A stretch of DNA of 26,150 bases, from IMG/VR virus record IMGVR_UViG_3300006919_000379, positions 1 to 26,150 of that record; one strand, given 5' to 3'. This stretch comes from a virus. Shown in pieces: positions 2,280 to 25,267 of this stretch. Within the stretch, counting starts at the first letter, position 1. Every line of letters starts with the position of its first letter. Both the position numbers and the translations under genes were made by a program. Below the pieces are notes generated by a model, which worked only from the letters and a program-made list of their open reading frames with translations, was not told the origin of the DNA and made no database searches.

Positions 2280-3164
2280 TCACGCTTTAGATTCGCCGCC
2301 GGGATCCGACAGCGAACGGAGCAGTTGATCAGAAGTCCAGTCACGCAACTGGGCTTCAACATCACCGAAAGTTTTGCCCTTGGTGTCTGGCACCTTGACG
2401 GGCTCCTTACGGTGAAGAACTTCGGTCTGCCCCGCCGTTTCCGGAACTCGTCCAATCTTGGACGGGTCTCCGATTACTGTGAGCATATCCTTTGCAACAG
2501 AATTAGCCGCTTTCTTAACTTCTTCGCTTACCCACGAATCTTCAAAAAGCCCTGCTTGATTTCTGCGATTCCGAAGGTTCTCAAGTGCCTGAGCCCTGAC
2601 TCTTTCAGAAACGCTCTCGCGGGCAGCCTTTGCTTCTTCTTCACTTCGATTGGTACCAAGCCAATCCATAAGAACTTTACCATCGCTATCCGTACTAATA
2701 GCACTAGAAAGAGAATTTTCTAGATTTTGTTGGAGCATTTGAGCCCGCATCTTCAAGACCTGATCATTCAACTGATCCGTCCGGGGATCTTCAAAGTTCT
2801 GGCGTTCCGGGACCTGCTCATTCTTCTCGGGCATTTCGTTTCCTTGGTCGTAGACTTGAACCCATTCTTCCACCTGATCGGGGTCGTAATTCATATCAAG
2901 AAGAATCTGGCGGGCGTTGTGCTTCTTGACTTCTGAATCAGTATTGGGATTCATAAGTCGAGAAGTGGCTTCTTTAAAACCTTCGAGGTGGTCCGTGTAT
3001 TGACGAAGTTCCTCGTAATTCTTGGCAGTCTCAGCCAGTTCCTCTGGGGTGTATTCTTTACCCCCCACATTAATGGTGTTACTGACTGGGGTTTCTTGAG
3101 TCTCTACCGTTTCAGGAGTAGGGGACTCGTTGGTTTCTTCTACCATAGTTGTCTCTTCAGCCAA
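2280..3164 (-). CDS. Scaffolding-like acidic protein
   Basis: 294 residues, strongly acidic at the N-terminus (MAEETTMVEETNESPTPETV) and largely charged alpha-helix thereafter, including likely coiled coil around residues 125-200. The segment NTINVGGKEYTPEELAETAK followed by NYEELRQYTDHLEG is typical of phage capsid-assembly scaffolds. The start is a TTG at 3164, eight bases inside the portal gene, with AAGGAG six bases before it; the first ATG in frame lies six codons later (3146) and lacks a comparable site. Position between portal and capsid supports a scaffold role. There is no Ser-His-Asp triad or other protease signature. The family is inferred from composition and context, not from a diagnostic motif. 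Confidence 0.72.
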   Translation of the reverse strand: MAEETTMVEETNESPTPETVETQETPVSNTINVGGKEYTPEELAETAKNYEELRQYTDHLEGFKEATSRLMNPNTDSEVKKHNARQILLDMNYDPDQVEEWVQVYDQGNEMPEKNEQVPERQNFEDPRTDQLNDQVLKMRAQMLQQNLENSLSSAISTDSDGKVLMDWLGTNRSEEEAKAARESVSERVRAQALENLRNRRNQAGLFEDSWVSEEVKKAANSVAKDMLTVIGDPSKIGRVPETAGQTEVLHRKEPVKVPDTKGKTFGDVEAQLRDWTSDQLLRSLSDPGGESKA

Positions 3165-5154
3165 TGTTCGCTCCTTGAATCATGCCGGGTCCGGGCTGAG
3201 GTCCGGGGCCAGCGGGGGGAGGTGCTTGCTCTGCAAAGAGTGCTGCCGAATCAGGATTCGGAACCATTGCAGGAAGCGAAGCACCCATGAATTGAATCAA
3301 TGCTTCACGATACTTCTTGAACTCGTCAATTACAACAGGGTCCGCCTTCATCATAAGAGTTCCAGACATGAATGAAGACAAGACCCTCATTTGAATTTCA
3401 GGCTTGGAGGTATGGGGTGTAATGACCACCTGTCCCGGCTCTGCTCCATTGCCATAAAGATTCAGGATGTTCTGGACCACCTGCTCATAAGCGGCTTGAT
3501 CTTCGTCAATCCACATCGCAAAGTCCAAGCCTTCCTTCAAGGCGAACAACTTAAGCGAGTCTGGGTCCATCAGGCCCGCTTGGAACATCTGCATGGCCTC
3601 TTGCTTGCGAGCAACCTCTGATCGAGGATTGATCTGCCGTACAGAGAACGTCAAATGAGCCACGTTGGGAATTGGGTTGTTCTTAAAAGATATCTCGCTC
3701 GTATCAAAATCAATCACCGCACCAGCAAGATTCAAGTCTAAAGACTTGACGGGAATTGGAGCAGGGTTAATCATCAACTCCCTGCTGGCATTCGAAAGCA
3801 TACTTCGATACATCTTGCCCCACGCCTGCACAACACCCATGGTCGGGTTTGTCATTGCCCGATTGATCTGCTCGTCGAGGAACTGAAGTCCAGTCGCAGA
3901 ATCGACCCGGCCCTTCTCGGCAATAAGATCTTGTACCGGATTGATGCTTTGCATCAACTGTTTTGCGAACGCGGCAGTCTTGCCCGGCACATCGCCTGCA
4001 TTGTGAGGTTGGATAGTGAAGGGGCTGAACTTTTCGTTCAAGGGATCAGGCTGATACGAGATCATTCGCAAGCCGTCTCCGACTTCACGAAGGATGGATC
4101 GTTCGTTAAAAGATCCCTGCGGCATCACAACAACGCCGTACCTGTCTAGATTCTTGATGTTGTTGAACAACGCCTTCAGCATCTTCTCCATCTCGCGGTT
4201 AATGCTGAAGAGAAGATCAAAGAGACCAGCGCCATGGAAAGAACCGTTCTCCATAAAACGGGCAAACCCGATAGGGCAGTATGTCTGAGAAGAACTAAGG
4301 TCCTGATCTTCAATCAGGTAGTCTCCCGAACAAACCACATATCGAGAGCAAGTACCCCTGTCCCCATCAATCCAAAGTTCCCGAACCCGGACAACCGTCA
4401 TTGAATCGGCACTAGTTGTCTTGTACCCCTTCGTGTTGAAGCCATTGCCCGTAAATCCATGATCTTCAGAGACTTCGGGGTCCTCAAGAGGATCCCCAAT
4501 CTCCATTTCGTAATACTCGCAATCCTCCAGATTCCTTTTGATCTTGTCCCCAAACTTCTCGACAAGAGTCTCAAGAGGAACCATTCTCTGTCGAATCATT
4601 CCACATTGCTTGGTGTAGTCTTGACCAAGGGATGGGAATGGAAGGATTTCCTTCGGGTGAATTACCTCTAAGTCCGAAGTAAGGCCAATCGTATCGTGGT
4701 TTGTGATATGGCCTTGGATCCCGCAAGAGCCCAAAGAAGTAAACAAGTGGGCAAACTTGGTAGATACTTCTGCAACCTGCTCATCAGAGACAAGAGAATC
4801 CGCAAGCATCTGGGCTGTTGCCCTCTGCCGGATCATCGGAAGGCTTGTGCCAGTCCGAAGAATCTTGGGGCGGAGGTCCATAGAGGAAAGACGGGAAGAT
4901 GCCCGGTCAATCGCCGAGAGCATCTCCTGACTCTGAAACTCCATGTTCCCCTCTTCGTCAAGATAGTGGGGGGACAGATTCCCAGACACGGGATCAAAGA
5001 CATCAAACCTACGCATACCGTTCAGGTAGTAATAGGTGAGCAGCCAAGTAATCCGACGATAGGAAAGTCTTGCGATTTCCTTTTCGGCGTGATCACGAAT
5101 GACCTGACAAATCTCAATCTTCTTCTTGGGCAGTTTGAATCGGTGCTGAGACAT
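3157..5154 (-). CDS. Portal protein
   Basis: 665 residues, in the usual size range of portals that carry long C-terminal extensions. It starts MSQHRFKLPKKKIEICQVIR with AAAGGA five bases upstream. Features typical of phage portals: an N-terminal helical region with a YYYLNG stretch, a middle domain with FSINREMEKMLKALFNNIKN (the stem/wing helix region), and a later GRVDSATGLQFLDEQINRAM segment, close to the D-S-A-x-G-L-Q-x-L element of many podo- and siphovirus portals. The C-terminus is Pro/Gly-rich (APPPAGPGPQPGPG). It overlaps the 99-aa gene upstream by 41 bp and the scaffold-like gene downstream by 8 bp. It would form the dodecameric DNA channel at the head vertex. Confident by motif plus position after TerL. 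Confidence 0.85.
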   Translation of the reverse strand: MSQHRFKLPKKKIEICQVIRDHAEKEIARLSYRRITWLLTYYYLNGMRRFDVFDPVSGNLSPHYLDEEGNMEFQSQEMLSAIDRASSRLSSMDLRPKILRTGTSLPMIRQRATAQMLADSLVSDEQVAEVSTKFAHLFTSLGSCGIQGHITNHDTIGLTSDLEVIHPKEILPFPSLGQDYTKQCGMIRQRMVPLETLVEKFGDKIKRNLEDCEYYEMEIGDPLEDPEVSEDHGFTGNGFNTKGYKTTSADSMTVVRVRELWIDGDRGTCSRYVVCSGDYLIEDQDLSSSQTYCPIGFARFMENGSFHGAGLFDLLFSINREMEKMLKALFNNIKNLDRYGVVVMPQGSFNERSILREVGDGLRMISYQPDPLNEKFSPFTIQPHNAGDVPGKTAAFAKQLMQSINPVQDLIAEKGRVDSATGLQFLDEQINRAMTNPTMGVVQAWGKMYRSMLSNASRELMINPAPIPVKSLDLNLAGAVIDFDTSEISFKNNPIPNVAHLTFSVRQINPRSEVARKQEAMQMFQAGLMDPDSLKLFALKEGLDFAMWIDEDQAAYEQVVQNILNLYGNGAEPGQVVITPHTSKPEIQMRVLSSFMSGTLMMKADPVVIDEFKKYREALIQFMGASLPAMVPNPDSAALFAEQAPPPAGPGPQPGPGMIQGANIG

Positions 5155-5413
5155 GTCGTTCCTTTGCGGCTACGCCCCCCGGCTTCCAATGGGACGGGAC
5201 ATCCATCGGGTTAAAGTTAATACCTTCCAGATTAATTTCTCCCCCCACTCGGGCAGGATTCTGGACAGGCACATCGGCATTCTTATCGTGACTGTAATAG
5301 GCACGAGCCATCGCTTCATAAAGAAAGTACGGAATTGTTACTTGTTGGAACGCAGGATCAGACCCGACTGGGTCCAACCTCAGGTCCTTCGGAGGCTCTG
5401 GCGAGAAGTTCAT
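5114..5413 (-). CDS. Hypothetical 99-aa protein between TerL and portal
   Basis: The protein begins MNFSPEPPKDLRLDPVGSDP and continues with FLYEAMARAYYSHDKN before a polar, Pro/Gly-rich second half. It overlaps the end of TerL by 56 bp and the start of the portal gene by 41 bp in different frames, so it is squeezed into a continuous late operon. There is no membrane segment, cysteine cluster or enzymatic motif. Small proteins in this position are often virion or head-completion accessory proteins, but nothing here proves that. Its reality is supported by the tight coupling and by amino-acid composition unlike a shadow frame. It contains one copy of the CCCCCCAC element (5241), encoding Val-Gly-Gly. 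Confidence 0.7.
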   Translation of the reverse strand: MNFSPEPPKDLRLDPVGSDPAFQQVTIPYFLYEAMARAYYSHDKNADVPVQNPARVGGEINLEGINFNPMDVPSHWKPGGVAAKERHVSAPIQTAQEED

Positions 5414-7298
5414 TTACAAATTCCGGACTAATAGAGTCTAGTTTATACGCGAGCGGAGTTCCTGCATCATCCCTTAGTTCGCCGTCGAGCATCTTTTCTT
5501 CGGTCGTTCTATCGTCCACGATGTCCTCGGGATTCCGCATGATACGGCCCTTGAGGATGTTACCTGACATAGAAAGGGTATCAAGATGGTCGTCTTTAGC
5601 GAGACCGCCATCGGCAACCTCCGGGTTGAACTGCTCGATCTGGTCGAATAGGTTCGTCCAGTGGCGGTCCATCCGGCGTTCGAGCGGGAACTTGATAAGG
5701 CCGTTCTCGAACCGGAACTGGAGAGCCCCGATCCGGGCGGACTTCGAGATCATGCCCACCTTGAGGGGCACGATCTTAGGCATGTGGGCTACCCCGAACA
5801 TCTCGGATGCTCGCTGCTTCACCAGACTATCAAGGTTCTGGTAGAGGGCGATGCTCTGGCGGACTACTTCCGGGTGGATGGACGGCACCTTCCATTTGTC
5901 TGCAATCTGGAAGATGTTCTTGATCAGGGTGTTCTCATCACACTGGGCACCCCAGACATCAATAACAAACAACTCATTGTCTGGCGTAGCCGCCATCACC
6001 ATGCAGACCTTGAAATCTGAATCTCCGGTGGCTGTCCAAGAAGTATCCACCGTCATGAAGACCCACGATTCCTTCAAGAAATCGCAGATCGGCATCTTCT
6101 TGGTATCGCCTTCCTGATCCTTCCAATTGATGAGGGTCGCGGATTCTCGGGGGTTGAGGCCATAGTCGGCATCTACGCTCGTCAACCACCAGCGATGGCT
6201 GTCGTCCAGTTCGGGGAAGAACTGGTCTTCACTACTACCGGGATCCGCCATGTACTCCGACGCGAAGTTGGCAGATCCGATCTGCTCCTTGATTTCCTCA
6301 AGGCTAATCCGCTCTTTGAGACGAGGATCGTTTTCCTTCTGCCTTCTGTCTACCGGCCACATCTCGGGCCAGCAAGAAACCATCTCGTCTTCCTTATCCT
6401 TATAGGCAGCCTTGATGATCATCCGGGACCAGTGGTCGAATCGGGGATCACGAGCCTTCAAGCCATTGGCGGTTTCCTGAGTCTCCATCGCATACCACGC
6501 ATAGTGGCGACGGCTCACGAAGGTAGCCAGCCACCGGAGGCTGGTGCCGGGCCTTGTGATCATGGGCATGACCACCTTGAAGAGCAGGGTGTCCATGTAC
6601 GAACGGAGGACGGACATCGAGGTCGATGCACGCGGATCGTACTCAGGGTCATCAAGGACGTAGCAGCGGGGACGACCACCACGCTGACGAGACTCTGACG
6701 AGATCGCTCGGAACCACGAGCCGTTCTTCAGATACATCAACTCAATGCCGAAGGACGCTTCACCACGACGAGGCACAATCCGGTTGTCGTCGAACTCCGG
6801 ACTCCAATCATCGAAGATACGGGAGTTCTGTTGGAACTGCGTCTTGATGATCTGGCCGGTCTGCTTGGCGTTGTCGTTGGTTGAGGTCGCGTAGATGAAG
6901 GAGTAGCCGGGTCTCGTCAACATCTGAAGAAGGATGGACTTCCGGATGCAGTTGGACTTGGCAAATCCTCGCGGTGCAATGGCAATGGATGCCCGGTTCT
7001 GTGCCCACTCCTTATAGATGCCCAAGTGACCGTCCGGTAGGGGGACTGGATCCTCGTCATAGAACATCGGGTTGAAGTCGTCGGCTTCATCCGGACATAG
7101 ATACCAGTGGTCAAAGAAAAGCATGGCCCCGATGAAACGATCCGCCTTATCTTGCGGGGTCGTTACGGGGACAAGCCATTGGCGACAGGCATTGACACGG
7201 GCTTGGCGTTGGCCGTCTTCCGTCAACTCCATGTAGTCGGGAGGCAACGGAAACAGTTCGTTACCCTCAGCCCTTGTCTCTATCCTTTTGATCCGCAT
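5358..7298 (-). CDS. terL: Terminase large subunit (packaging ATPase/nuclease)
   Basis: 646 residues with the two-domain layout of phage large terminases. ATPase domain: Walker A-like IAIAPRGFAKSN at about 106-117, Walker B CYVLDDPEYD at about 212-221, and a likely coupling motif around LRWLATFVSRR. RNase H-fold nuclease domain: first aspartate in FMTVDTSWTATGDSDF (D418), second in LFVIDVWG (D447), and the third acidic cluster in KDDHLDTLSM (D569/D570). It would translocate phage DNA into the prohead and cut it at the portal. The Walker A is the deviant G-F-A-K-S form common in TerL. The start overlaps the previous gene by 32 bp; the later Met in DYMELTEDG is a possible but less likely start. 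GC content looks higher than in the portal gene. Confidence 0.95.
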   Translation of the reverse strand: MRIKRIETRAEGNELFPLPPDYMELTEDGQRQARVNACRQWLVPVTTPQDKADRFIGAMLFFDHWYLCPDEADDFNPMFYDEDPVPLPDGHLGIYKEWAQNRASIAIAPRGFAKSNCIRKSILLQMLTRPGYSFIYATSTNDNAKQTGQIIKTQFQQNSRIFDDWSPEFDDNRIVPRRGEASFGIELMYLKNGSWFRAISSESRQRGGRPRCYVLDDPEYDPRASTSMSVLRSYMDTLLFKVVMPMITRPGTSLRWLATFVSRRHYAWYAMETQETANGLKARDPRFDHWSRMIIKAAYKDKEDEMVSCWPEMWPVDRRQKENDPRLKERISLEEIKEQIGSANFASEYMADPGSSEDQFFPELDDSHRWWLTSVDADYGLNPRESATLINWKDQEGDTKKMPICDFLKESWVFMTVDTSWTATGDSDFKVCMVMAATPDNELFVIDVWGAQCDENTLIKNIFQIADKWKVPSIHPEVVRQSIALYQNLDSLVKQRASEMFGVAHMPKIVPLKVGMISKSARIGALQFRFENGLIKFPLERRMDRHWTNLFDQIEQFNPEVADGGLAKDDHLDTLSMSGNILKGRIMRNPEDIVDDRTTEEKMLDGELRDDAGTPLAYKLDSISPEFVNELLARASEGPEVGPSRV

Positions 7299-7572: not shown

Positions 7573-7963
7573 CTGATTCAGAATCAGTTTTTGCCGGGGC
7601 GAGATACTGGGCAGCAAAGTCTGGGTTTTCGGGGAGTTGGCTTCTGTGGGTCGTGGCTTTGAGACTTGAGAGGAGTTTTTGGTTGCGGGTGATCCTGACA
7701 CTCTTGTTTCCTTCCTTGTCTGTCGCGGTGTACTCCTGAGTCGTAATGAGTCCGTTCGCCTTGGCGACTTCATTGAGTACTCTCCGCAACTGGTTATGGG
7801 CTCTGAGAGCGATCTTAGCGTCTGGGTCTCGAAGATGTTGGACAAGGGTCGCAATCTCTTCTTCGATCGTGAAGGAATTCATGTCCAACGCTTTTGACGC
7901 AGCGTCCGCATCAAAGAACGAAAGGATCTTCCCCCCACTCTCTTCGTGTTGCCATTCGCTCAA
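7505..7963 (-). CDS. Hypothetical protein in the small-terminase position, 152 aa
   Basis: It starts at a TTG (7963) that overlaps the TGA of the 737-aa gene (TTGA), with AAGGA eight bases upstream. Residues about 30-75 are a mostly helical region (EEEIATLVQHLRDPDAKIAL followed by RAHNQLRRVLNEVAKANGLI) that could be a helix-turn-helix or repeat-type fold. It is followed by a basic segment and an acidic, low-complexity tail (SDEADGTDGSSEIGGSG). A helical DNA-binding N-domain plus a flexible tail directly upstream of TerL is what one expects of a small terminase subunit (TerS), but no diagnostic motif is visible, so TerS is a hypothesis. Confidence 0.65.
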   Translation of the reverse strand: MSEWQHEESGGKILSFFDADAASKALDMNSFTIEEEIATLVQHLRDPDAKIALRAHNQLRRVLNEVAKANGLITTQEYTATDKEGNKSVRITRNQKLLSSLKATTHRSQLPENPDFAAQYLAPAKTDSESDEADGTDGSSEIGGSGVVRLGD

Positions 7964-10173: not shown

Positions 10174-10183
10174 GTGTCACCTA

Positions 10184-11578
10184 TCAGTACTGAAAACTAC
10201 CGGGGGGGAAGTTACTAAGGGGGTTTTGCGGTTGAGGGACCGGGGGATAATGAGCGTAGGGGTTTGGACCAAAGACCCCTTGAAGTGGGTTGGGTCGGCC
10301 AGTAAACCCATAGTTTCGAGGTGCAAAAGGACCCTGCTGGATACCGAACCCGCCTTGGTTGTAGTTGGGGCTAATCAAATTCCCAAATCTATCCTTGGGG
10401 CCGTAAGCATCTTCAATGGGAAAAAACTGCGAGCCATCTTCACTTCTATAGAGGGCAGGCTTTCCGTCATTGTGTATAGCACCAAACTCTAGCCCTCGTG
10501 CATATGCAGGATTATCTTCAGGAACTGTCGATGGATCGAAATGCAGACCTCTCACATAACCACCTTCCCTCCCGCCCCTAAACTCAATATCGGGTCTATA
10601 GCCAACGATTCCCTCGTTGCTCCTTCGGTTGATCTGATCATTAGGAACTTCTCCTTCGCGGGGACCATCAGCCCTACGAAGATCGGAGGGATTATCCGTG
10701 ATAATGCCGAGAGGTCTTGCCCCTCCAAACTTCCCCTTTGAGTTCAACTCAGTCGCATATAGCCCGCTGTTCTCAAAGCCGGGAGGGTTATATGGAGGAG
10801 GAGCGGGGGGTGCTGGTCCAAGGCCAGAGTTTTCAAAGCCGGGAGGGTTGTAACTGTTGTTTCTATGCTCATCAGCAGCAATTACACCAGCACGATCCCG
10901 TAGGCCCCCCAGAATAGAATTGCCTTGAGTTTGAGGCTGATTAGCGACGTAGTCTCGAATTGCGTCCTGCTCAGCACGCATTGCATCAGGACCCATGACC
11001 TGAGTTGTAGTCTGGCCTTGGGGTCCATACGCTTGGTTTGCAGGAAGGTTTACAGGAACAGAAGCACTACGACCTTCTTGTCCCATCAATGCGAGTGCAT
11101 CAAGAGGCCCCTTGTCGGGTAGAGGGTTTTCTTCTCTAAAGCGTTGGATCTCACGAGATCGCTTCATTTTATCTACGTCTTTAGCGATTCCTTCGATGGC
11201 TTTAAGTTCTCGGTCGGCAAGTTTATTTGCGGCCTCAAATTTGGTTTTATTTTTTCTTTCCCTTGTTTTCGCCGCATTCGATGCTATGAATTCACTGCGC
11301 CGGTCCGCGCGCCCCTTCTTACGGGCTGCTGCACGTTCTTGCAGTTCAGTCTTTTTCGCCCCGCTGCTTTGCCCCCCACTCGACTTTCGGGTCCCTGCCC
11401 GAGCCCGAGTCGGATTGTTCACTTGGGCATTGGCAACTGCTGTGGCGGTATAGGGGTTGTCAACCCGCTGTCGTCGAGAAGAGGACCCTCTCGCCGCAAG
11501 CATCTGAAGGAGTTGCATAACCTCCCTCATCCCCACGTTTTGATTATTCTGAACTGCACTTACTGACTGCTGAGCCAT
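10184..11578 (-). CDS. Low-complexity, partly disordered late protein, 464 aa
   Basis: First gene of the leftward operon; AAAGGGG lies about 6 bases before the ATG. N-terminus: Gln/Asn-rich then a basic coiled-coil-like region (about residues 65-150, with repeated Arg/Lys/Ala, for example RAAARKKGRADRRSEF). From about residue 200 onward it is Pro, Gly, Asn and Gln-rich, with an exact 11-residue repeat YNPPGFENSGL present twice, 20 residues apart. The C-terminus is an Asn/Pro/Tyr-rich tail (GFTGRPNPLQGVFGPNPYAH). The composition suggests a largely disordered protein, possibly virion or internal; no family was recognised. Confidence 0.75.
   Translation of the reverse strand: MAQQSVSAVQNNQNVGMREVMQLLQMLAARGSSSRRQRVDNPYTATAVANAQVNNPTRARAGTRKSSGGQSSGAKKTELQERAAARKKGRADRRSEFIASNAAKTRERKNKTKFEAANKLADRELKAIEGIAKDVDKMKRSREIQRFREENPLPDKGPLDALALMGQEGRSASVPVNLPANQAYGPQGQTTTQVMGPDAMRAEQDAIRDYVANQPQTQGNSILGGLRDRAGVIAADEHRNNSYNPPGFENSGLGPAPPAPPPYNPPGFENSGLYATELNSKGKFGGARPLGIITDNPSDLRRADGPREGEVPNDQINRRSNEGIVGYRPDIEFRGGREGGYVRGLHFDPSTVPEDNPAYARGLEFGAIHNDGKPALYRSEDGSQFFPIEDAYGPKDRFGNLISPNYNQGGFGIQQGPFAPRNYGFTGRPNPLQGVFGPNPYAHYPPVPQPQNPLSNFPPGSFQY
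10773..10849 (-). repeat. In-gene direct repeat encoding PPGFENSG
   Basis: The 17-bp sequence TCAAAGCCGGGAGGGTT occurs at 10773-10789 and again at 10833-10849, exactly 60 bp apart, so the repeat stays in frame (20 codons). Flanking bases also match in part. It encodes the NPPGFE core of the duplicated YNPPGFENSGL element in the 464-aa protein. Confidence 0.85.
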
Positions 11579-11606: not shown

Positions 11607-13007
11607 ATGAGTAATGTCACTCAACCCGCCACTTTAGCGTCCCAAGAACCGATGCAGGTTGCACGATACCTTCTAAACACTAGGTTCTCCACCCCCAATA
11701 ATAGAAACGGATTGTGGTTTTGGCGTGGTAATTTTTACGAGTGGTACGGAGAGAGGTGGCAGCAGCGAGATCGGGAGTGGGTCGAAAGTGCTATTTGGGT
11801 GTCGCTGGAAAATACGACGTTCTCCCAGCCAACCAACACCGGAACTCGTCAAGTTCGGTACGCACCCAATATTCCGAAGGTGCAGGGGGTCATGAGAGCG
11901 TTGCAGGCAGTCCAGACCTTACCTCATGAAAAGTCTCCAGTGTGGCTGACCGCCCCCAAGACGAAAACCACAAGAACCTTGGTTTCTTTTGCAGACACTA
12001 TCTTGGATGCAAAGACCGGCGACCGCTTTGAGCGGGACGAAACCTTCTTTGATCCGAATGTTCTGCCCTGTAACTTCGAGCCGGGGGCAAAATGTCCTAC
12101 ATGGCACAAGTGTCTGGAGGAGTGGAGCGGGGGTGATGCAGAATGGTCGAGGCTTTTGCAGCGTATGTTCGGTTATTGCCTGCTTCCTCACCGCGATTAT
12201 GCCAAATGGTTCCTGATGTATGGCAAGATCCGTGGCGGTAAGGGTACGATCATGACGATCCTTAAAGCCCTACTCGGCGAGGGCTACATGGGCACCTGCC
12301 TTGAGGATATCGCTGGTCAGTTCGGGCTCTGGGGCATCGAACAAGCACGGGTGATGGCAATTAATGAAGTCTCTGAGATATCAAATCGTGAAGGCGAAGC
12401 CGCTTGCAGGGTCCTCAAGTCGATCGTGGGTAAAGACCCCATCTCCATCAACCGCAAATTCGAGCAGCCTCTCCGGAACGTGGTCGTGGACGCCGTCCCG
12501 ATCATGCAGTCAAACGAGATTCCGCGTCTTCCCAATAAGGGGCTCGGGCTGTCTGGGAAAATGGTGCTTCTTCCCTTCACGGTGAGTTTCGCAGGGCGAG
12601 AGAACTACCGCCTAGCAGAGCAGTTGCTGGACGAATTGCCCGGTATTGCGTACTGGGCATGGCAGGGTGCTAGGGCTGTAGAAGAAGAATCTGACCCGAA
12701 GCGGAAATTTCCCATGCCCGAGAAGTCGTTGGCTCTTATTGATGAGTACCACACCATCAATAACCCCATTGATGAGTTCTTGGGTTCCTGCTTTGAGGCG
12801 AAGGAGGGGTCGTTTGTCTCTTCCGAAGCCCTCTATAGTAAGTGGGAAGATTGGAGCCGGGGCCTCAGAGTCCCCCCACTCAGCAAGAACCAGTTGATTT
12901 ACCGGGTCGTCGAGGGGTCTACTTGGGACATCTCCAGAGCCCGCATAGGCACCAAGAGGACCAGAGGGCTCCGTGGGCTGGCTTTGCGGCCACAACCCGA
13001 CCATTGA
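11607..13007 (+). CDS. SF3/D5-type replicative helicase (no primase domain)
   Basis: 466 residues. The C-terminal ATPase half carries a D5/P4-type superfamily 3 helicase core: Walker A GKIRGGKGT at about 206-214, a Walker B-type strand RVMAINEVSEI at about 248-258, and a motif C-like VPIMQSNEIPRL near 300. Upstream, WKCLEEW-type and GDAEWSRLLQRMFGYCLLPH segments match the D5_N region that precedes the ATPase in these proteins. It would form a hexameric ring and unwind DNA at the fork. Unlike P4 alpha, there is no N-terminal primase or zinc domain, so priming must come from elsewhere. A TAG directly precedes the ATG in frame, so this is the first possible start, although no good ribosome binding site is visible. 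Confidence 0.85.
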   Translation: MSNVTQPATLASQEPMQVARYLLNTRFSTPNNRNGLWFWRGNFYEWYGERWQQRDREWVESAIWVSLENTTFSQPTNTGTRQVRYAPNIPKVQGVMRALQAVQTLPHEKSPVWLTAPKTKTTRTLVSFADTILDAKTGDRFERDETFFDPNVLPCNFEPGAKCPTWHKCLEEWSGGDAEWSRLLQRMFGYCLLPHRDYAKWFLMYGKIRGGKGTIMTILKALLGEGYMGTCLEDIAGQFGLWGIEQARVMAINEVSEISNREGEAACRVLKSIVGKDPISINRKFEQPLRNVVVDAVPIMQSNEIPRLPNKGLGLSGKMVLLPFTVSFAGRENYRLAEQLLDELPGIAYWAWQGARAVEEESDPKRKFPMPEKSLALIDEYHTINNPIDEFLGSCFEAKEGSFVSSEALYSKWEDWSRGLRVPPLSKNQLIYRVVEGSTWDISRARIGTKRTRGLRGLALRPQPDH

Positions 13008-13950: not shown

Positions 13951-14364
13951 ATGCACACTCAGACTTGTTCAAAGTGTTCTGGTTCTGGTACTGACTCTGG
14001 TCATCCTGATCATGGTCGTCCTTGTAACTTCTGTGTTGAAGGAGTTACAGCAGGACCCGGTTACAAATTGGTGTGGTTCATCTACAGGGATTATGGATAT
14101 CCCATCACCAACCATGAGTTTCTTGATGTTGCCCTTGGTGATCTCGAAGCCATGGGATTCGAAGACCCCACATGGGATCAGTGGGGGGAAGCACACGTTG
14201 CCCCCGCAATCATCGACGAGACCACTAACGATATCGTGGATGAAGGAGTTGAAGAGGCAGACGGATGGTACAAGTGGAATGAACAAGGGCCAGTTGATTC
14301 AAAAGGATGGATCGACCACCTCAGTGGCAAGTGGAACAGTTTCAACGTAAAGGAGCAGGCATGA
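13951..14364 (+). CDS. Zinc-ribbon protein, 137 aa
   Basis: Residues 6-28 carry two CxxC knuckles (C6/C9 and C25/C28) in a C-x2-C-x-G-x-G setting that resembles half of a DnaJ-type zinc finger. Zinc binding is therefore likely, while co-chaperone function is not shown because no J-domain is present. The rest is acidic with a conserved-looking LDVALGDLEAMGFEDPTWDQ segment. It is the first gene of a five-gene cluster with ATGA/TGATG overlaps. GGAG lies nine bases before the ATG, inside a small inverted repeat. The gene contains the GTGGGGGG form of the octamer at 14181. The next gene repeats the TWDQW motif, hinting at a shared domain. Confidence 0.78.
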   Translation: MHTQTCSKCSGSGTDSGHPDHGRPCNFCVEGVTAGPGYKLVWFIYRDYGYPITNHEFLDVALGDLEAMGFEDPTWDQWGEAHVAPAIIDETTNDIVDEGVEEADGWYKWNEQGPVDSKGWIDHLSGKWNSFNVKEQA

Positions 14365-14639: not shown

Positions 14640-14869
14640 ACACAGAAAACAATGGATGTTGGATGAACTGGTACGACAAGCCCCCCACATATCAAGAGGA
14701 GGAGCCCGAGTACTCCAAGACTGTAAGAGTCTTCGAGATGCTCAAAGACGGCACCAAGGGACAGCAGTTGTTGGTCCGTAGGTACAAGTTTGGCAGCGGA
14801 GAAAGAGCATACTCCCTCGCAAGAGACTTCGAGGGCAATGGTTTCATTGCAGAAGTGGAGGAACACTGA
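14636..14869 (+). CDS. Hypothetical protein, 77 aa
   Basis: ATGA overlap with the previous stop; GGAGAGG upstream. The protein begins MNTENNGCWMNWYDKPPTYQ, includes KTVRVFEMLKDGTKGQQLLV and a RYKFGSGERAYSLARDFEGN segment, and ends acidic. The second half looks like a small beta-strand domain. One CCCCCCAC element (14681) encodes Pro-Pro-Thr near the N-terminus. No family recognised. Confidence 0.68.
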   Translation: MNTENNGCWMNWYDKPPTYQEEEPEYSKTVRVFEMLKDGTKGQQLLVRRYKFGSGERAYSLARDFEGNGFIAEVEEH

Positions 14870-15957: not shown

Positions 15958-15986
15958 ATTAGGTCCATTACTTTGAAAGGTAATCA

Positions 15987-17179: not shown

Positions 17180-17360
17180 ATTCAAAGTGGTATGGTTGGG
17201 GAGTAAGGTGGTAAGTGTGTCCACCTCCTCCCCCCACCTACCTAAATGGGAGGCTGAACTTCCTTTGGTATCCAAGGAAGTAAGCCAATCTTCTCGATAC
17301 GAAATGCCCGACGATCAAGCGAAGTTGCACTACAACTTGCTGAAGATCAGCGGGCAATAA
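17169..17360 (+). CDS. Short hypothetical protein, 63 aa
   Basis: Overlaps the end of the previous gene by 11 bp; no clear ribosome binding site, so translation would rely on coupling. It begins MSVEFKVVWLGSKVVSVSTS, with a plausible beta-hairpin, and ends 8 bp before a strong terminator stem, which supports it as the last gene of the unit. It contains a CCCCCCAC copy at 17230. Moderate confidence only because of its length and missing ribosome binding site. Confidence 0.5.
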   Translation: MSVEFKVVWLGSKVVSVSTSSPHLPKWEAELPLVSKEVSQSSRYEMPDDQAKLHYNLLKISGQ

Positions 17361-17366
17361 ACCACA

Positions 17367-17579: not shown

Positions 17580-17839
17580 TGATTCAGCCCGAAACAGAGA
17601 TGAACTTCAAGACGTTCATCGAAGCAGCAAAGAATGATGACCTCTCCCTTGTCTCGTGCAAAGACGCAAAGGGTAGGTCATTCGACGTGATTGCTGTTTT
17701 ATGTGTAGATGCCAATGACTTTAGTCATGACGTTTACATGCCGTTCGCAGTGATGGCAGGACCAAACATGTATCCTCTCATGCGAAAGATAAAGCCACCG
17801 GAAAATCTCAAAGGAGAATGGTGTTGGGATGACGAATAA
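17579..17839 (+). CDS. Small hypothetical protein, 86 aa
   Basis: Two starts are plausible: 17579 (TAATG overlap with the mini-ORF) and 17600 (MNFKTFIEAAKNDD), which gives 79 residues. The motif FKTFIEAAKNDDLSLVSCKD followed by a hydrophobic strand (FDVIAVLCVD) and YMPFAVMAG resembles a family of small phage proteins of the form F-K-T-hydrophobic-x-x-A-A-x-x-x-x-L-x-L-hydrophobic-x-C (possibly DUF6117; from memory). Function unknown. It ends inside the first codons of the glycosylase gene, so it is the lead gene of the long replication operon. Confidence 0.7.
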   Translation: MIQPETEMNFKTFIEAAKNDDLSLVSCKDAKGRSFDVIAVLCVDANDFSHDVYMPFAVMAGPNMYPLMRKIKPPENLKGEWCWDDE

Positions 17840-18518
17840 CATACAACTTCCACAGTTTTTCTCCGCACCCTCATGCACGTTATGTGATCTGCATCAGGGG
17901 GCCAAGAATCCGGGGGTTCCGACAAGGTTCTTTGAACAGTCGGAACCCTCGTCACATCTCCCCCCACTCATCGTGGTCGGCATGAACCCCGGTGTTCGTG
18001 AAGACACCACCAACACATGCTTTGTTGGGCCAAGCGGCAATCTACTTACCAGCGTCTACCTTAACCACGAAGAGATACTACGGGCTCCTGTGTATCTCAC
18101 CAACGCAGCAAGATGTTCAACGCTGGGCACCAACGAATCCCCCAAGAACAAGCACTACAAAGCGTGCTTCCCCTATCTTCTCAGTGATATCGAGTTGATC
18201 CTTGAGCATCACGCTACAAAGAAAGCCCTCGTCCTTTGCCTTGGCAGCCACTCCTACGGTGTGGTCAGCCAGCATTTCACAGGCAAGAAGCAATCTCTAC
18301 GCCATGGCTTCAACAACCAAGGCCAACCATCCTCCCTTCTGCTCCCGAACGAACTGAACATCTACGCCACCTTCCATCCGGCAGCAGTACTGCGGGAAAA
18401 GAAGTATCTCTACCCCGTATCAGATCACATGGAGTTGGTGGCTCGTGCTATCAACGGTGATCTACCCACACCATCACTACCCGACATATGGGAGGCGACA
18501 TGGCCGACGAAGTTCTAA
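17829..18518 (+). CDS. Uracil-DNA glycosylase superfamily protein (family 4-like)
   Basis: 229 residues. Four cysteines in family 4 spacing, C16-x2-C19, C96 and C113 (C-x16-C), should hold a 4Fe-4S cluster. The first active-site motif is GMNPGVRED (51-59) followed by FVGPSGNLL; the last is TFHPAAVLR near residue 185. Family 4 enzymes usually have GEAPG in motif 1, whereas GxNPG is the mark of the Mug/TDG family, so the active site looks mixed. Expected role: removing uracil or a related damaged base from DNA. It overlaps the previous gene by 11 bp and the next by 19 bp within the replication operon. The superfamily is secure; the exact substrate is not. Confidence 0.87.
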   Translation: MTNNIQLPQFFSAPSCTLCDLHQGAKNPGVPTRFFEQSEPSSHLPPLIVVGMNPGVREDTTNTCFVGPSGNLLTSVYLNHEEILRAPVYLTNAARCSTLGTNESPKNKHYKACFPYLLSDIELILEHHATKKALVLCLGSHSYGVVSQHFTGKKQSLRHGFNNQGQPSSLLLPNELNIYATFHPAAVLREKKYLYPVSDHMELVARAINGDLPTPSLPDIWEATWPTKF

Positions 18519-18944: not shown

Positions 18945-19264
18945 AACTCAAGGCTGTTGAGAGAAGAGACATCGAGGATGGGATCCGTAGGGCTGTAGCC
19001 CTTGAAACCTACACGGCTGAGTGGGATTGGTATGACAAGAGAAAGGCTGTTCGCTTTGTCAACAAAGCCATCGAGCATTCCGGTACATCCAAGAAGCAGT
19101 TGTCGTACCAAACTGGTATTTCGTCTTCTTCTTTTACCAATTTGAGTCGAGGGATAGTTCACCTCAGGCCAAGCCACTTCTTCAAGATCGTAAGATGTGT
19201 TTACCCCGAGTACGCTGCCATCGTTGAAGCAGAGCAAGCAGACATAGAAAGGTTGCGTGACTAA
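18938..19264 (+). CDS. Helix-turn-helix protein, 108 aa
   Basis: Residues about 35-75 (KAVRFVNKAIEHSGTSKKQL followed by SYQTGISSSSFTNLSRGIVH) fit an XRE/Cro-type helix-turn-helix: a helix, a TSKKQLSYQTGIS turn region and a recognition helix SSSFTNLSRG. The C-terminus is an acidic helix. It could be a transcription regulator of the phage program or a replication accessory; the palindrome at 13901 is a possible target (inference). It ends with a TAATG overlap to the polymerase gene, so the two are probably co-translated. AGAGAGG precedes the ATG. Confidence 0.72.
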   Translation: MLKLKAVERRDIEDGIRRAVALETYTAEWDWYDKRKAVRFVNKAIEHSGTSKKQLSYQTGISSSSFTNLSRGIVHLRPSHFFKIVRCVYPEYAAIVEAEQADIERLRD

Positions 19265-21390
19265 TGCTGATCAGCCTCGATATCGAAACTTATGGAGCGG
19301 CACGGGGCAATCACATTGGCTTGCTCCTACCAGAGCAAACTGTCTTTCACCCCCGCAAGTCTTCTTACATTGATGGGGTAGACAAGCAGAACATGATTCT
19401 CACGGCAGCCATCACTCTGCCCAAACAAAAGTTTCCGGAGGAACTATCCTTCCGTACACTGGCCGGGCTTGAACCCGGTAAGACAATGGTGTTCCAACTG
19501 CACGATGAAGAACAACAAGCAATGCTTCACCAATGGTTGAGGCAAGCAACAACCATCATCGGCATGAATCTACAGTTCGATCTTCAATACCTCAGGTACT
19601 GCGGGTATGAAGTGTCTGACAAGATCCCTCTTGTGGATCTCTCGGTCCTCAACTATCTCCACTCTGAACTACGAGAAGAGCGTAGTCTCAAGGCACTTGG
19701 TCCTGTCCTTGGTGCCTTCACCTACACGGACACCCTCAAGACCACACGCTTCAAGCGTGCCACAGACTCGGGCCTCATTTCATACAACGCTCAGGACACC
19801 CACAACACCATGTTGGCTGTTGCGGAATTGTCCCGCCGATTGTTGGACGACAAGTATGACACGCACTTCGACATTGAAGCAGGTACTTACGCTCTTGACT
19901 TCTACTCCGAGAGCATCTGGTCAACCATCGCCATGTCAGAGGCTGGCGTTCCAATGTCATCGCTGGCACTTCAACGTCTCATGGAACGATGCAAGCAAGA
20001 CATTGCAGAAGCAGAAGATGACGCAAACAAGAACGACCTCATACTCAGGGGCGAAGGTTCAGCCAAAAGTAAGGACGAGTTCCTCCTTGAAGTAATCAGG
20101 TTGATCGAGGAGGTGTCCAACCCCGACATCATGGATGCACTTGACGTAACCCCAAAGAGTAAGAAGGTCTCGTTCTCCGACAAGAACCGGACCACCCTGT
20201 ACGAAGCACTGCCCGAAGGCATTGACGCCGACATGTACAGAGAGTGCCTCGACGCTGCTGACAAGCACAGCAAGGCGATGAAGTTGATGTCGTCGTACTG
20301 TTACCCGTTGCTCTACCACCGCCGGAACAAACCGGATGACATGTCTTCCATCATCATTCCCCCCCACATGTCACTGCCGACCCATATGACAATGCCGGTG
20401 CCTATCTTCAAGACACCAGCCGACAGGGTGGAAGCAGCAGCAAAGGATCAAAGCGAAGAGAAGATAAAGAAGATGGGGTGTCGGTTCTCAGGCACACGGC
20501 CTCCGGGGTACGGTGACGCCATTGCGTACCCAACGTGGTACGTCACCCCCAGCCACATCAAGAACGACAGCGGCACAAGCGGCGGCACAATCCAAGGCCG
20601 CATCACCTGCAAGCAACCCTCGGCCCAGACATTCCCGAAGGCAGTGAAGAAGTGCATCCGCAGCCGCTACACCAACGGCAAGATCGTCGCCATGGACTTG
20701 TCGCAGGCAGAACTACGGGTGGCAGCCCTCCTGTCGGGAGAAGAAAGCATGATCACCGCATACCAGAGCAACCAAGATCTACACGCAGACAGAGCCCGAT
20801 CTCTGTGGGGGGACTACGACGACGCCGAAGCAAAGCAGCAAGAACGCAGGCAGGTGGGCAAGATGATGAACTTTGCCGACCTCTTCCTGTCCTCTGCCAA
20901 CACCATGCGTGAGCAGGTGTATGCACAATCCGGCGGTGACATCCTACTTCCCTTGGCCTTCTATCAAGAAGTGGTGAGTAAGAGAGAAGAAGTTCGACCC
21001 CAACTTACGAATTGGCAAAGGGGTCTACTTGCAAAGGTGAAGAGGGACCACCGAATCATGCTGCCCCTTACCGGGCAATCACGCACGTTTCTTGGTGATC
21101 TTGGTAAGTCACGCTCAGAAGTTGTCAACTTCCCCGTCCAAACCACGGCGGGCAACGTGACTCTTGCTATACAACACCACCTCCGCAGGATCCTGCCCGA
21201 AAGAATCCTGATGTTTCTTCAGATATATGATGCGGTCTACCTTGACTGTCCTCCAGACATGATCCATGCTGCAACCAACGCCGTCGATGAGGCGGTCGCA
21301 CATGTGTGCAGCATCGGATACTGGGGGGACTTGCAGCGTGTCTATGACCGCGAAGTCCCCCTCAAGCATGATCTGGAGATATGGGACTAA
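19264..21390 (+). CDS. polA: DNA polymerase I (family A) with 3'-5' exonuclease
   Basis: 708 residues, close to T7 DNA polymerase in size. The proofreading domain is complete and of DEDDy type: D6/E8 in LDIET, D106 in GMNLQFDLQYL, Y174 and D178 in YNAQDTHNTM. Polymerase motifs: motif A VAMDLSQAELR with catalytic D478; motif B RQVGKMMNFADLF with R529, K533 and F537 (the position equivalent to E. coli Phe762); motif C QIYDAVYLD with D656, where the usual His-Asp-Glu is Tyr-Asp-Ala. No 5'-3' exonuclease domain. Replicative polymerase of the phage, working with the D5-type helicase. AAAGG upstream and TAATG coupling to the HTH gene. It overlaps the ERCC4 nuclease by 10 bp. Confidence 0.95.
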   Translation: MLISLDIETYGAARGNHIGLLLPEQTVFHPRKSSYIDGVDKQNMILTAAITLPKQKFPEELSFRTLAGLEPGKTMVFQLHDEEQQAMLHQWLRQATTIIGMNLQFDLQYLRYCGYEVSDKIPLVDLSVLNYLHSELREERSLKALGPVLGAFTYTDTLKTTRFKRATDSGLISYNAQDTHNTMLAVAELSRRLLDDKYDTHFDIEAGTYALDFYSESIWSTIAMSEAGVPMSSLALQRLMERCKQDIAEAEDDANKNDLILRGEGSAKSKDEFLLEVIRLIEEVSNPDIMDALDVTPKSKKVSFSDKNRTTLYEALPEGIDADMYRECLDAADKHSKAMKLMSSYCYPLLYHRRNKPDDMSSIIIPPHMSLPTHMTMPVPIFKTPADRVEAAAKDQSEEKIKKMGCRFSGTRPPGYGDAIAYPTWYVTPSHIKNDSGTSGGTIQGRITCKQPSAQTFPKAVKKCIRSRYTNGKIVAMDLSQAELRVAALLSGEESMITAYQSNQDLHADRARSLWGDYDDAEAKQQERRQVGKMMNFADLFLSSANTMREQVYAQSGGDILLPLAFYQEVVSKREEVRPQLTNWQRGLLAKVKRDHRIMLPLTGQSRTFLGDLGKSRSEVVNFPVQTTAGNVTLAIQHHLRRILPERILMFLQIYDAVYLDCPPDMIHAATNAVDEAVAHVCSIGYWGDLQRVYDREVPLKHDLEIWD

Positions 21391-21914
21391 AACGAGAATA
21401 CGTCATTCTTCGGGACACACGAGAGAAGAAGCCGCTCATCTTCCCCGAGACGCTCGTGATGCTCGATGACACCAAGCCCCCTTGGTTCCGCCGGTCTATC
21501 ACCGTTAGACTGAGAGTCGAAGACTACCCACTCAAGACAGGCGACTACTGTCTCCTCGGATATGAGAAGGTGTGTCTAGTGGAACGCAAGGGTTCCCTCA
21601 GGGAAGTGGCGGGGTACTGCATAACCAAAGACGGTTGTCGCAGGTTCACCTCTCAGGTCGAACGCCTCAAGGAAGAGGCTGCCCTGCCATACCTCCTGAT
21701 GGAAGGAACTCCCATAGATCTTCTCCGGCCAACTCTACATGTAGAGAAACCCGGACAAGCCATGGATTCTTTCCAAAGATTCCTGCTAAAGAATGAGATT
21801 CCGCTTATCCTATTACCCGCAGCAACTACTACGGCCCGCAAGGCAGTGGGCGAGTGGGTTGCTAGGCTTATGATCAACGGAGCATTAACCCATGGCATGG
21901 ATGATCACGAATAG
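21381..21914 (+). CDS. ERCC4/XPF-type nuclease
   Basis: 177 residues carrying an ERCC4 nuclease domain: ILRDTREKKPL (D12, R14, E15) at the N-terminus, LKTGDYCL with D55, the core VERKGSLREV (E68, R69, K70) matching the G-D-x(n)-E-R-K signature, and a downstream RRFTSQVERLKEEAALPYLL segment as in Mus81/XPF-type nucleases. It would cut branched or flapped DNA near junctions. No helix-hairpin-helix motif is obvious in this short protein, so a partner or dimer may supply DNA binding. The ATG lies within the last codons of the polymerase, linking it to replication; GGAG precedes it. Confidence 0.88.
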   Translation: MGLKREYVILRDTREKKPLIFPETLVMLDDTKPPWFRRSITVRLRVEDYPLKTGDYCLLGYEKVCLVERKGSLREVAGYCITKDGCRRFTSQVERLKEEAALPYLLMEGTPIDLLRPTLHVEKPGQAMDSFQRFLLKNEIPLILLPAATTTARKAVGEWVARLMINGALTHGMDDHE

Positions 21915-22173: not shown

Positions 22174-22826
22174 TGGCACGAGTCCTCGTCATCGGGGATA
22201 TACATTGTCCTGCTGATCTCACCAAGTATCGGCAGCACTGTCAGCGTGTCCGCGATAAGTACAAGACCACGAAGACCGTCTTCATCGGTGACATCGTAGA
22301 TGCACACAGGTGGGGGAGATGGGATCCCCATCACGAAGCAGACTCTCCCCCCACTGAGTACAAGAAAACACTCAAGCGGGTGGAGTGGTGGCACAAGAAC
22401 TTCCCCGATGCTCATGTCACCATTGGCAACCACGACATGCGGTCGGTGAAGCAGGCTCGTGCGGTCGGCATCCCCGACAACATGGTGAAGTCGTATGCTG
22501 ATGCTTGGAATACCCCCTCGTGGGAGTGGGTGAACGATGTCGAGATCGACAACGTCCGATACTTTCACGGGGAGGGCTATTCAGGTAAATCCCCCCACCT
22601 CAACGCAGCCATGAACTCGATGAAGTCCACGGTCATGGGGCACATTCATGGGGTTGCTGGGATACAATGGTTCTGTAGGCCGGGAGGCAAATACTTTGGT
22701 ATGGCAGTAGGTTGTGGGGTTGACGTAACCCACCCCTACATGGAATACGCAGAGAAGCACCCTACGAAACCCGTTCTCTCTTGTGGCGTAGTTATCGACG
22801 GACACCCTTACCTAGAGGTTCTTTGA
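22173..22826 (+). CDS. Calcineurin-like metallophosphoesterase, 217 aa
   Basis: The start at 22173 (TGATG with the preceding stop) gives MARVLVIGDIHCPADLTKYR, putting metal motif I GDIH at residues 8-11. Motif II is FIGDIVDAHRWG, motif III IGNHDMR, and motif IV GHIHG near residue 160: the full set of two-metal ligands of the superfamily. Members act on nucleotides, RNA, DNA ends (Mre11/SbcD, Lambda-like phosphatases) or phosphoproteins. Here the neighbourhood of polymerase and ERCC4 nuclease suggests DNA or nucleotide phosphoester cleavage (inference). It has two CCCCCCAC copies (22347, 22591) in different frames. Confidence 0.88.
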   Translation: MARVLVIGDIHCPADLTKYRQHCQRVRDKYKTTKTVFIGDIVDAHRWGRWDPHHEADSPPTEYKKTLKRVEWWHKNFPDAHVTIGNHDMRSVKQARAVGIPDNMVKSYADAWNTPSWEWVNDVEIDNVRYFHGEGYSGKSPHLNAAMNSMKSTVMGHIHGVAGIQWFCRPGGKYFGMAVGCGVDVTHPYMEYAEKHPTKPVLSCGVVIDGHPYLEVL

Positions 22827-23318: not shown

Positions 23319-23931
23319 TGAAGCATTTCGTGTACTTGAAAGACGCATCTGGGCATTTATTTTATTGCTCGTTGTACTCTTTTCTCCATTTCTTCTTGGG
23401 TCCTGTTCTGCTTCAACTGAGATCGCCAAGGCGTCGACCGTCATTGGAGACAAGGCAGCATCGTCGAAGAACCGCTTCGCCGTTATTGAAGAGGAAGCCG
23501 GGACGACGACGCCAGACTTGGCAGTGATCAAGAGCGAAGCAGTGGGGGGACAGCGGGAACAGGATGCAATCCTGACCTACGCCTCCGACATTCAACACCT
23601 GCTTCCTTCAGTAGAAGACCAGACGCCCTACTGGCTAAACGTCGTGGAGTACGGCCTCATAGTCTTAGGAATCATTGGGACTTGCTGGCTTCTGTGGTAC
23701 ACTGGTATAGGTTCACTGATAAGGGGGCTGGTGGGATTCATCCCACGAGCAAAGAGACGAGAAGCAAACCTAGCAAGTGAGGCTCTTGATGAGCGTAGTC
23801 CCGTGACGGTTCGGGAACTTGTCGCGGCCAAGCGTGCATCAGACCCGGAGTTCGATAGAGCCTATGAGCGAACAAGAACTGAAAGATCTAGAACGATTCG
23901 CTCGGATGAGAGACCCGCTTCCGGGGACTGA
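23317..23931 (+). CDS. Lipoprotein/membrane reading frame without its own start, 204 codons
   Basis: The frame reads DEAFRVLERRIWAFILLLVV, LFSPFLLGSC, SASTEIAKAST and so on: a charged n-region, a hydrophobic core and a lipobox-like LLGSC, then a soluble stretch. A second hydrophobic helix (VVEYGLIVLGIIGTCWLLWY) and a basic/acidic C-tail follow. No ATG, GTG or TTG lies in frame between 23176 and the hydrophobic core. The in-frame ATGs at 23161 and 23176 lie deep inside the upstream gene and would add a non-signal-like N-terminus; a TTG at 23365 is inside the core. I place the beginning at the UCC-UGA junction, read as a +1 continuation of the 88-aa protein (total about 292 aa). A real indel or an ordinary start at 23161 are the alternatives. 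A lysis or envelope role is possible. Confidence 0.55.
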   Translation, partial: DEAFRVLERRIWAFILLLVVLFSPFLLGSCSASTEIAKASTVIGDKAASSKNRFAVIEEEAGTTTPDLAVIKSEAVGGQREQDAILTYASDIQHLLPSVEDQTPYWLNVVEYGLIVLGIIGTCWLLWYTGIGSLIRGLVGFIPRAKRREANLASEALDERSPVTVRELVAAKRASDPEFDRAYERTRTERSRTIRSDERPASGD

Positions 23932-24146: not shown

Positions 24147-24156
24147 ACTGCCTGAC

Positions 24157-24186
24157 CCCCGGCCCCGCGTTCGCGGGGGGCCGGGG
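24157..24186 (+). terminator. Very GC-rich hairpin
   Basis: CCCCGGCCCC (24157-24166) pairs with GGGG-GGCCGGGG (24177-24186), ten perfect pairs; two further pairs can close over a short loop. No T-run follows. It separates the membrane-protein group from the next small-gene group and may act as a terminator, a processing site or a stabiliser. Confidence 0.6.
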
Positions 24187-24213
24187 TTCATCACATTAGA
24201 CAAGGAGAATCAC

Positions 24214-24746: not shown

Positions 24747-24756
24747 GGAGACAGCC

Positions 24757-24996
24757 ATGGCGTATGCGTTCTTCAAGGAACTCAGCGAAGCAGAAGAAGC
24801 AGACTTTCGGCAGTGGGCTAGATCTAATTATGTGATTGGAGACCCCATCCCCTCTACTTGGCACCCGGTTGTCGTGGACGAGTGCATGTACATGCTCACA
24901 GGAAAGGCAAAGAATGGCTTGGATAGCAAAGAACAACCCGGACTGGGACAAGATCCAACGGCAATGGGAAACCAAGATGGAGAAAGAAATGCTTGA
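24757..24996 (+). CDS. Small hypothetical protein, 79 aa
   Basis: GAGGAG five bases before the ATG. It begins MAYAFFKELSEAEEADFRQW and continues with ARSNYVIGDPIPSTWHPVVV; the last 28 residues coincide with the overlapping next gene and are Gly/Gln-rich. The first 50 residues look like a real helical domain. No family recognised. Confidence 0.65.
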   Translation: MAYAFFKELSEAEEADFRQWARSNYVIGDPIPSTWHPVVVDECMYMLTGKAKNGLDSKEQPGLGQDPTAMGNQDGERNA

Positions 24997-25267
24997 AGAC
25001 AACTTCGATCCCCAGTGGGAGGCAGCGATTCGTGGAGACAGAGAGGCACTGTGCCTTGAACTCCAGACCATGGCCGAAACTGTTGATGCACTTGATACAC
25101 ATCTCCATGCACTCATGAGGCAGATCCATGACCTTAGAAGCGGACTTCAATCAGACCCCCCCACCAGTACCTACAAATCATCCGTGGCCGGAGACATTGG
25201 GACGGGAAGCCTACGAGCATCTCCAAGCACACGGAATCAACGCGATCATTCCACCCCTCCGTTCTAG
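24914..25267 (+). CDS. Hypothetical coiled-coil protein, 117 aa
   Basis: The start at 24914 is chosen because GGAAAGG precedes it and the sequence before it looks like a shadow of the previous gene. MAWIAKNNPDWDKIQRQWET leads into an acidic/basic helix, then TMAETVDALDTHLHALMRQI is a probable coiled coil. The final part (about 45 residues, Ser/Thr/Pro-rich) overlaps the start of the nuclease gene and may be little conserved. No function recognised. Confidence 0.6.
   Translation: MAWIAKNNPDWDKIQRQWETKMEKEMLEDNFDPQWEAAIRGDREALCLELQTMAETVDALDTHLHALMRQIHDLRSGLQSDPPTSTYKSSVAGDIGTGSLRASPSTRNQRDHSTPPF

Follow-up and report, generated by a model that had tools for sequence, protein, structure and literature searches.

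Chi, the recombination signal of bacteria at which DNA-degrading repair enzymes halt and turn to recombination, is read in AddAB and RecBCD by helicase-like domains of the enzyme. Experiments have established Chi-like sites in just a few bacteria, and the question of how the sequence of such sites changes is still open. The sites listed include GCTGGTGG in Escherichia coli, AGCGG in Bacillus subtilis and GAAGCGG in Staphylococcus aureus (PMC8022716), and no motif was detected in most Proteobacteria (Buton and Bobay 2021). Phages enrich the Chi of their hosts (Bobay et al. 2013, PMC3784561): its median over-representation in lambdoid phages is 2.3-fold, phages that lack a recombinase carry more of it, at a density of 0.2/kb, and T5-like and P1-like phages show the strongest enrichment among other groups. 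Here we describe a strongly over-represented octamer, CCCCCCAC, in a virus record of 26,150 bases (IMG/VR record IMGVR_UViG_3300006919_000379, an incomplete genome; the whole of this stretch is hereafter the window), together with words of the same kind in its relatives. On balance we favor the view that the motif is a dispersed polar signal, kept throughout a family of uncultured tailed phages, that works like Chi, a claim that stops short of calling it a Chi site.

The likeness to E. coli Chi in lambdoid, T5-like and P1-like phages is considerable. In both cases the word is short, polar, G-rich, enriched, mostly located in coding DNA and found on a preferred strand. However, enrichment in the family reaches about 10-80 times expectation at densities of about 0.35-1.2/kb, several spellings occur within a single phage family, one of them carries an extra GG, and the recombinase Sak4 is present. 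A GYGG core is common to the family words, GCTGGTGG, AGCGG and GAAGCGG but is not found in the Lactococcus lactis site. The word of one clade of the family (clade B) contains the entire GCTGGTGG and that of another (clade C, AGCGGGGAA) contains AGCGG. Nevertheless, the family words are longer and more specific than the AddAB sites of B. subtilis and S. aureus, and a link to such hosts is a candidate at most. E. coli Chi proper was rejected as the identity of the motif, given that GCTGGTGG is insufficient in clade B and that other clades use other words.

The 16 copies of CCCCCCAC in the window lie between positions 3061 and 25164, 12 on the plus and four on the minus strand, and make it the commonest octamer there. 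Eight of them are part of the decamer TCCCCCCACT: those with octamers at 5241..5248, 7931..7938, 12872..12879, 17960..17967 and 22347..22354 on the plus strand and at 4966..4973, 14181..14188 and 23542..23549 on the minus strand. The other copies are at 3061..3068, 11372..11379, 14681..14688, 17230..17237, 20360..20367, 22591..22598 and 25157..25164 (plus) and at 20805..20812 (minus); the first of these reads as the G-rich GTGGGGGG on the minus, terminase-coding strand, those at 20360 and 25157 are runs of seven C, and the last plus-strand copy lies in a nuclease gene. An order-3 Markov model (four-letter words) predicts 1.4 octamers and 0.1 decamers in the window; for the 16 octamers observed, the Poisson tail probability is 2.8e-12, or about 9e-8 when corrected for all octamers. 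Shuffling synonymous codons in genes of at least 100 amino acids, with protein and codon usage preserved, gave a mean of 1.67 octamers and a maximum of six in 300 shuffles, compared with the 12 observed in genes. The over-representation and the eight decamers claimed in a previous reading made from the sequence alone (the sequence-only reading) are consequently confirmed.

The location of the copies is indifferent to genes. All six coding phases are represented, as the sequence-only reading had stated, and a conserved peptide was rejected as the cause because copies occur in all of them. The same reading held that copies avoid intergenic regions, which was not borne out: 15 of the 16 lie inside open reading frames (ORFs), where 94% are expected at random, and across the family 433 of 473 copies do so against 445 expected. 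Gene boundaries are disregarded, and an intergenic or promoter motif was rejected on these grounds. The layout also bears on the suggestion that the sites are bound by a phage regulator or a DNA-organizing protein, either stoperator-like or nucleoid-associated. The stoperators of cluster A mycobacteriophages are asymmetric and dispersed, with a consensus that differs between phage groups, and the asymmetric, dispersed, lineage-specific sites of the family resemble them in form. But the family copies sit in coding DNA regardless of gene ends or transcription, whereas promoter-like motifs of two control phages are about half intergenic. The stoperator reading was rejected because copies neither concentrate at gene boundaries nor follow the orientation of transcription, and regulator sites in general appear distinctly unlikely.

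About 200 related viral loci, incomplete genomes among them, were examined. A terminase search recovered 74 loci in IMG/VR, and profile searches with the nuclease and Sak4 brought in as many as 80 loci apiece, of which about 140 in total were new. Terminase relatives were absent from 50,697 cultured phage records, the search for the nuclease or Sak4 found no cultured relatives, and a search of the available literature found no description of the motif or of the phage family. In every near-complete relative a G-rich dispersed word is among the most over-represented k-mers, nearly always at rank 1, and the same type of word is among the top k-mers of nearly every locus of at least 9 kb fetched with the PD-(D/E)XK nuclease or Sak4. 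One piece (L164) had no such word among its top k-mers and two others (L194 and L211) had a weak signal; a top G-rich word is likewise missing from some pieces of 20 kb that belong to known members.

The spelling of the word is specific to the lineage. In the clades of the window (A and A2) the word on the G-rich strand is (A/C)GTGGGGGGA, and the octamer is both enriched and strand-biased in whole-record counts (e.g., 20:3, 25:11 and 30:14), with few, near-zero copies of the reversed control word. Two members illustrate the excess, with 23 copies against 2.7 expected (G004) and 44 against 6.3 (G025), and the pattern of enrichment is repeated in relatives. Other clades of the same family scarcely use the octamer of the window and have words of their own: GCTGGTGGGG in clade B (35 copies against 0.5 expected in G032), AGCGGGGAA in clade C (18 against 0.4 in G036), TAGTGGGGAA in clade D (11 against 0.1 in G047) and GAGTGGGGG in a clade of low GC content. 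Hand alignment revealed that all spellings share a GYGGGG core, whereas the flanks are specific to the clade. Single-base variants of the individual cores, including those counted across the clade of the window, are at or near expectation, with the exception of tolerated flank positions in clade B. In a subclade of the window's clade (G014 and G050, comprising L100-L102 and L136-L138) seven G are favored over six (GTGGGGGGGA), a small step in motif drift.

When the five motif types were placed on the tree of Sak4, four changes, the minimum possible, accounted for their distribution. GC content spans 0.45-0.59 in type A and 0.50-0.64 in type B, with type A extending down to 0.41 in other loci. 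The motif type tracks the phylogeny of the phages and not their GC content. With at least five related spellings on a tree and hundreds of conserved copies within one phage family, how a recombination signal and its reader evolve can be tested directly.

Conservation of the motif was evaluated at aligned codons with identical amino acids in two relatives, using GC-rich 8-mers as the control. The motif was kept at 56 of 100 such sites in clade A, 36 of 44 in clade A2 and 104 of 129 in clade B, against 12.9, 9.8 and 48 expected, while words of the same composition were retained in 16%, 11% and 42% of cases, respectively. Conservation of the motif at synonymous positions was 2-4 times that of controls; pairs of relatives share ancestry and these counts are not fully independent. 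Both orientations are conserved about equally, with retention in the majority and minority orientations of 31/54 and 25/46 in clade A, 25/26 and 11/18 in clade A2, and 56/72 and 48/57 in clade B. Furthermore, within each orientation the spacing of copies is more even than if they were placed at random, a property that control 6-mers in equal numbers do not have. With one genome taken per subclade, the combined p was 7e-6 for the major and 1e-5 for the minor strand, and the spacing on the major strand is about 2 kb. Selection on the motif as DNA, beyond codon bias, is strongly supported, and codon shuffles, synonymous-site conservation and relatives agree strongly with the proposal of the sequence-only reading that it is not the protein that is selected.

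These data also dispose of the trivial explanations. Chance, codon bias, base composition or an assembly artefact could draw on the strand bias, which by itself differs little from what composition predicts in skewed genomes. However, Markov, codon-shuffle, single-substitution and conservation tests reject them, codon shuffles in particular rule out codon bias and composition, and the motif is seen in many independent assemblies; the probability left to this class of explanation is negligible. A pure effect of G runs was rejected as well, since G runs that lack the flanking GT show no enrichment. The sequence-only reading also offered a modification target, which fits poorly and was rejected together with restriction: the word is enriched and not avoided, and no methyltransferase was among the families found by a Pfam scan of one near-complete genome (G014).

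The strand preference was studied by turning all records so that the terminase lies on the plus strand. The G-rich word is then found on the terminase-coding strand in 423 of 640 cases (423:217), about 2:1 across the family. The 12:4 split in the window is weak when taken alone (p = 0.08 against 1:1 and p = 0.04 against composition). Among the genomes of clades A and A2, six with low skew, chosen after seeing the table (the window, G004, G008, G024, G040 and G043), give a split of 106:41 where 55% is expected (p = 2e-5). In most records, genes of either direction show the same preferred strand, which upholds the sequence-only claim insofar as the bias goes with the DNA strand and is independent of transcription; in skewed genomes, however, the size of the bias is near that expected from composition. 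No switch point of orientation was found along near-complete genomes.

Strand preference and even spacing raise the possibility of lagging-strand initiation, in which a primase or helicase-primase, encoded by phage or host, would start at the motif on a single-stranded template. The major-strand spacing is near the size of Okazaki fragments, and the phage has its own helicase and polymerase. But copies on the minor strand are as conserved and evenly spaced, orientation does not switch, no primase domain was found (the D5/DUF5906 match covers the helicase part only), and known primases read 3-5 bases. Because both strands are used and conserved, we consider priming unlikely. We also considered a polar signal that would direct a DNA translocase or serve packaging or segregation, in the manner of KOPS (FtsK orienting polar sequences) or pac. 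KOPS and SRS (SpoIIIE recognition sequences) are polar G-rich words on a preferred strand, and a directional, dispersed G-rich word with one preferred strand is what the family exhibits. A KOPS-like signal nevertheless fits poorly, since orientation neither switches nor converges on a terminal site along near-complete genomes, minority copies are equally conserved, and no FtsK-like translocase family appeared in the Pfam scan of the one genome (G014). Known pac and cos sites, in turn, do not work as dispersed copies. Signals of this kind are very improbable and, like regulator sites, fit the layout worse. In sum, the simple forms of priming and of packaging or segregation that the sequence-only reading had listed are disfavored by the even, conserved minority copies and by the lack of a switch, and the Chi-like signal is the best fit among the functions on its list.

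The phages themselves encode proteins related to end processing. Near-complete genomes from five clades carry together a PD-(D/E)XK nuclease (about 407-441 amino acids), a small ORF and the Sak4 recombinase, with the nuclease adjoining Sak4 in every near-complete genome and the small ORF between them. The catalytic residues of the RecB family are conserved (H84, D196, D211-x-K213 and Q231-x3-Y235). An AlphaFold model of the nuclease (predicted local distance difference test score of 89) has its closest folds in the nuclease domain of AdnA (Z 14.7, 247 residues, root-mean-square deviation 4.9) and then that of AddB (Z 12.8, 278 residues, 5.5), followed by Cas4-family and RecE nucleases. The AdnA and AddB matches have Z of 12-14.7, and the best matches span residues 20-404 of the protein. 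With Foldseek, AddB was the sole PDB match below 0.001, and sequence profiles of the nuclease and Sak4 retrieved nothing meaningful from the PDB. By active site and predicted fold, the nuclease is AddB/AdnA-like. It resembles AddAB (4cei/4cej) and AdnAB (9np6/6ppr) in its predicted fold and in the type of its catalytic residues, but unlike the AddB and AdnA domains it stands alone, without helicase parts. A protein of 441 amino acids without helicase domains has no room for a superfamily 1 (SF1), Chi-reading pocket, and the Pfam scan of G014 showed no SF1/UvrD-like helicase family. An AddAB, RecBCD or AdnAB holoenzyme was rejected as the identity of the nuclease for these two reasons.

Could this stand-alone nuclease, with Sak4 and the small ORF, itself read the motif? 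The phage nuclease and Sak4 would then recombine phage DNA bearing the word and degrade host DNA without it, and word and reader would have diverged together. The adjacency of the two genes in near-complete genomes of every clade, the conserved active site, the structural matches to AdnA and AddB, the dependence of motif type on phage phylogeny instead of GC content, and the lack of enrichment in a bacterial chromosome described below are all compatible with a reader of this type and with such co-divergence. Nevertheless, the protein lacks the helicase-like domains that read Chi, the one scanned genome encodes no UvrD-like helicase, and co-inheritance does not single out the nuclease, given that any gene tree would track the lineage. 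Both proposals are rather unlikely. Indeed, no single gene can be assigned as the reader because the genes of the family share one history. Since reading Chi needs a helicase that the phage seems to lack, we lean, tentatively, to a host enzyme as a more probable reader than a phage-encoded one. With a host reader, the motif would be a prediction of the Chi used by uncultured aquatic hosts; with a phage reader, the word would be a virus-borne mark of self and non-self.

The preferred explanation, a signal that works like Chi, rests on enrichment, sharp specificity, lineage-specific spellings around a common core, synonymous selection, even spacing, strand preference and the co-occurrence of nuclease and Sak4, all observed together. 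An enzyme of the RecBCD/AddAB/AdnAB kind would load where phage DNA has a double-strand end, whether from injection, breakage or cutting for packaging, run along the DNA and meet the motif from its 3' side, where degradation would stop. The enzyme would then pass the 3' strand to a recombinase, and the phage genome would be repaired or joined into concatemers instead of being destroyed. Reading by such an end-processing enzyme, with this effect, is the most likely arrangement. The orientation of copies is consistent with it. The lambda terminase genes lie at the left end of the genome and are read rightward. Terminase occludes the left end of lambda and leaves only the right end open to RecBCD, which reads Chi from the 3' side of the site (PMC2082072). 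Taken together, these arrangements place active lambda Chi on the terminase-coding strand; that most copies in the family also lie on the terminase-coding strand would agree with the orientation of Chi in lambda.

Several observations weigh against this explanation. A motif that follows phylogeny across GC contents of 0.41-0.61 is not predicted by a Chi set purely by the host. Enrichment and density are far above those of Chi in lambdoid phages, and the strongest enrichment of Chi was reported in phages without a recombinase (PMC3784561), yet the family carries Sak4. In clade B, GCTGGTGG without the following GG is at expectation; the final GG is therefore required and the word is not plain E. 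coli Chi. Strand-specific composition predicts 64% of copies on the preferred strand and 66% were observed, so that skewed genomes need no further cause and strand bias deserves less weight than the sequence-only reading gave it. A low-skew genome of clade D (G047) showed no bias at all (8:9). The last difficulty concerns the host. A terminase search of GTDB contigs gave a single match, in a Myxococcales bin, a metagenome-assembled genome (record PCCS01) in which a member of the phage family is split over three contigs (L154, L155 and L156). These contigs carry 35 motif copies in 48.6 kb, whereas the rest of the bin has 39 in about 3.55 Mb, with 61 reversed controls in the whole bin.

The 57 other Myxococcota genomes analyzed showed no motif excess. 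Because only one of 379 Myxococcota genomes carries the terminase, the bin says little about the host; it is either a host clue or bin contamination, and in both cases weak host evidence. As for tRNA genes as clues to the host, none were found in 36 scanned pieces of relatives. DUF6117 was not found on plasmids.

The window has a structural arm transcribed leftward, with the terminase and its neighbors, and a replication arm transcribed rightward. The terminase large subunit (5358..7298, minus strand; phrog_38 match, 2.7e-43) sets the phage family and the reference strand. The rightward arm comprises a D5/DUF5906-type replicative helicase (11607..13007, plus), a uracil-DNA glycosylase superfamily gene (17829-18518) conserved in most near-complete family genomes, a family A DNA polymerase (19264..21390, plus), an ERCC4-type nuclease (21381..21914, plus) kept in near-complete genomes of the family, and a metallophosphoesterase gene. 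The PD-(D/E)XK nuclease of RecB/AddB/Cas4 type (PF12705; Pfam 2.2e-10) occupies 25128..26150 on the plus strand and is truncated by the end of the window. Runs of six or more G/C other than the motif number 11, and about five of them are mostly paired in local folds; the sequence-only statement that such runs sit in hairpins holds for these but not for most. The runs GGGGGG at 659 and CCCCCC at 671 are each fully paired in a strong hairpin at 650-690 (local folds, about -30 kcal/mol), which is terminator-like and near the end of a leftward gene (694-2268).

Dispersed words were also recorded in other phages. In the Rhodobacter phage RcTiptonus (L303), 16 copies of the palindromic CAATCGATTG occur in 40.8 kb, where about 0.1 would be expected on each strand; they are mostly inside ORFs, and the word is unrelated to the family motif. 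The words TTAATTGCA in Vibrio phage KarBoss (L305) and CAATGGAGTG in Stenotrophomonas phage Summit (L302) are dispersed and about half intergenic, and look like promoter or regulator sites. Finally, 24 copies of CCAAGGCAAC form a local array at 30153-30657, at the end of the piece, in Alteromonas phage R9Y2 (L299), and may represent either an origin iteron or a coding repeat.

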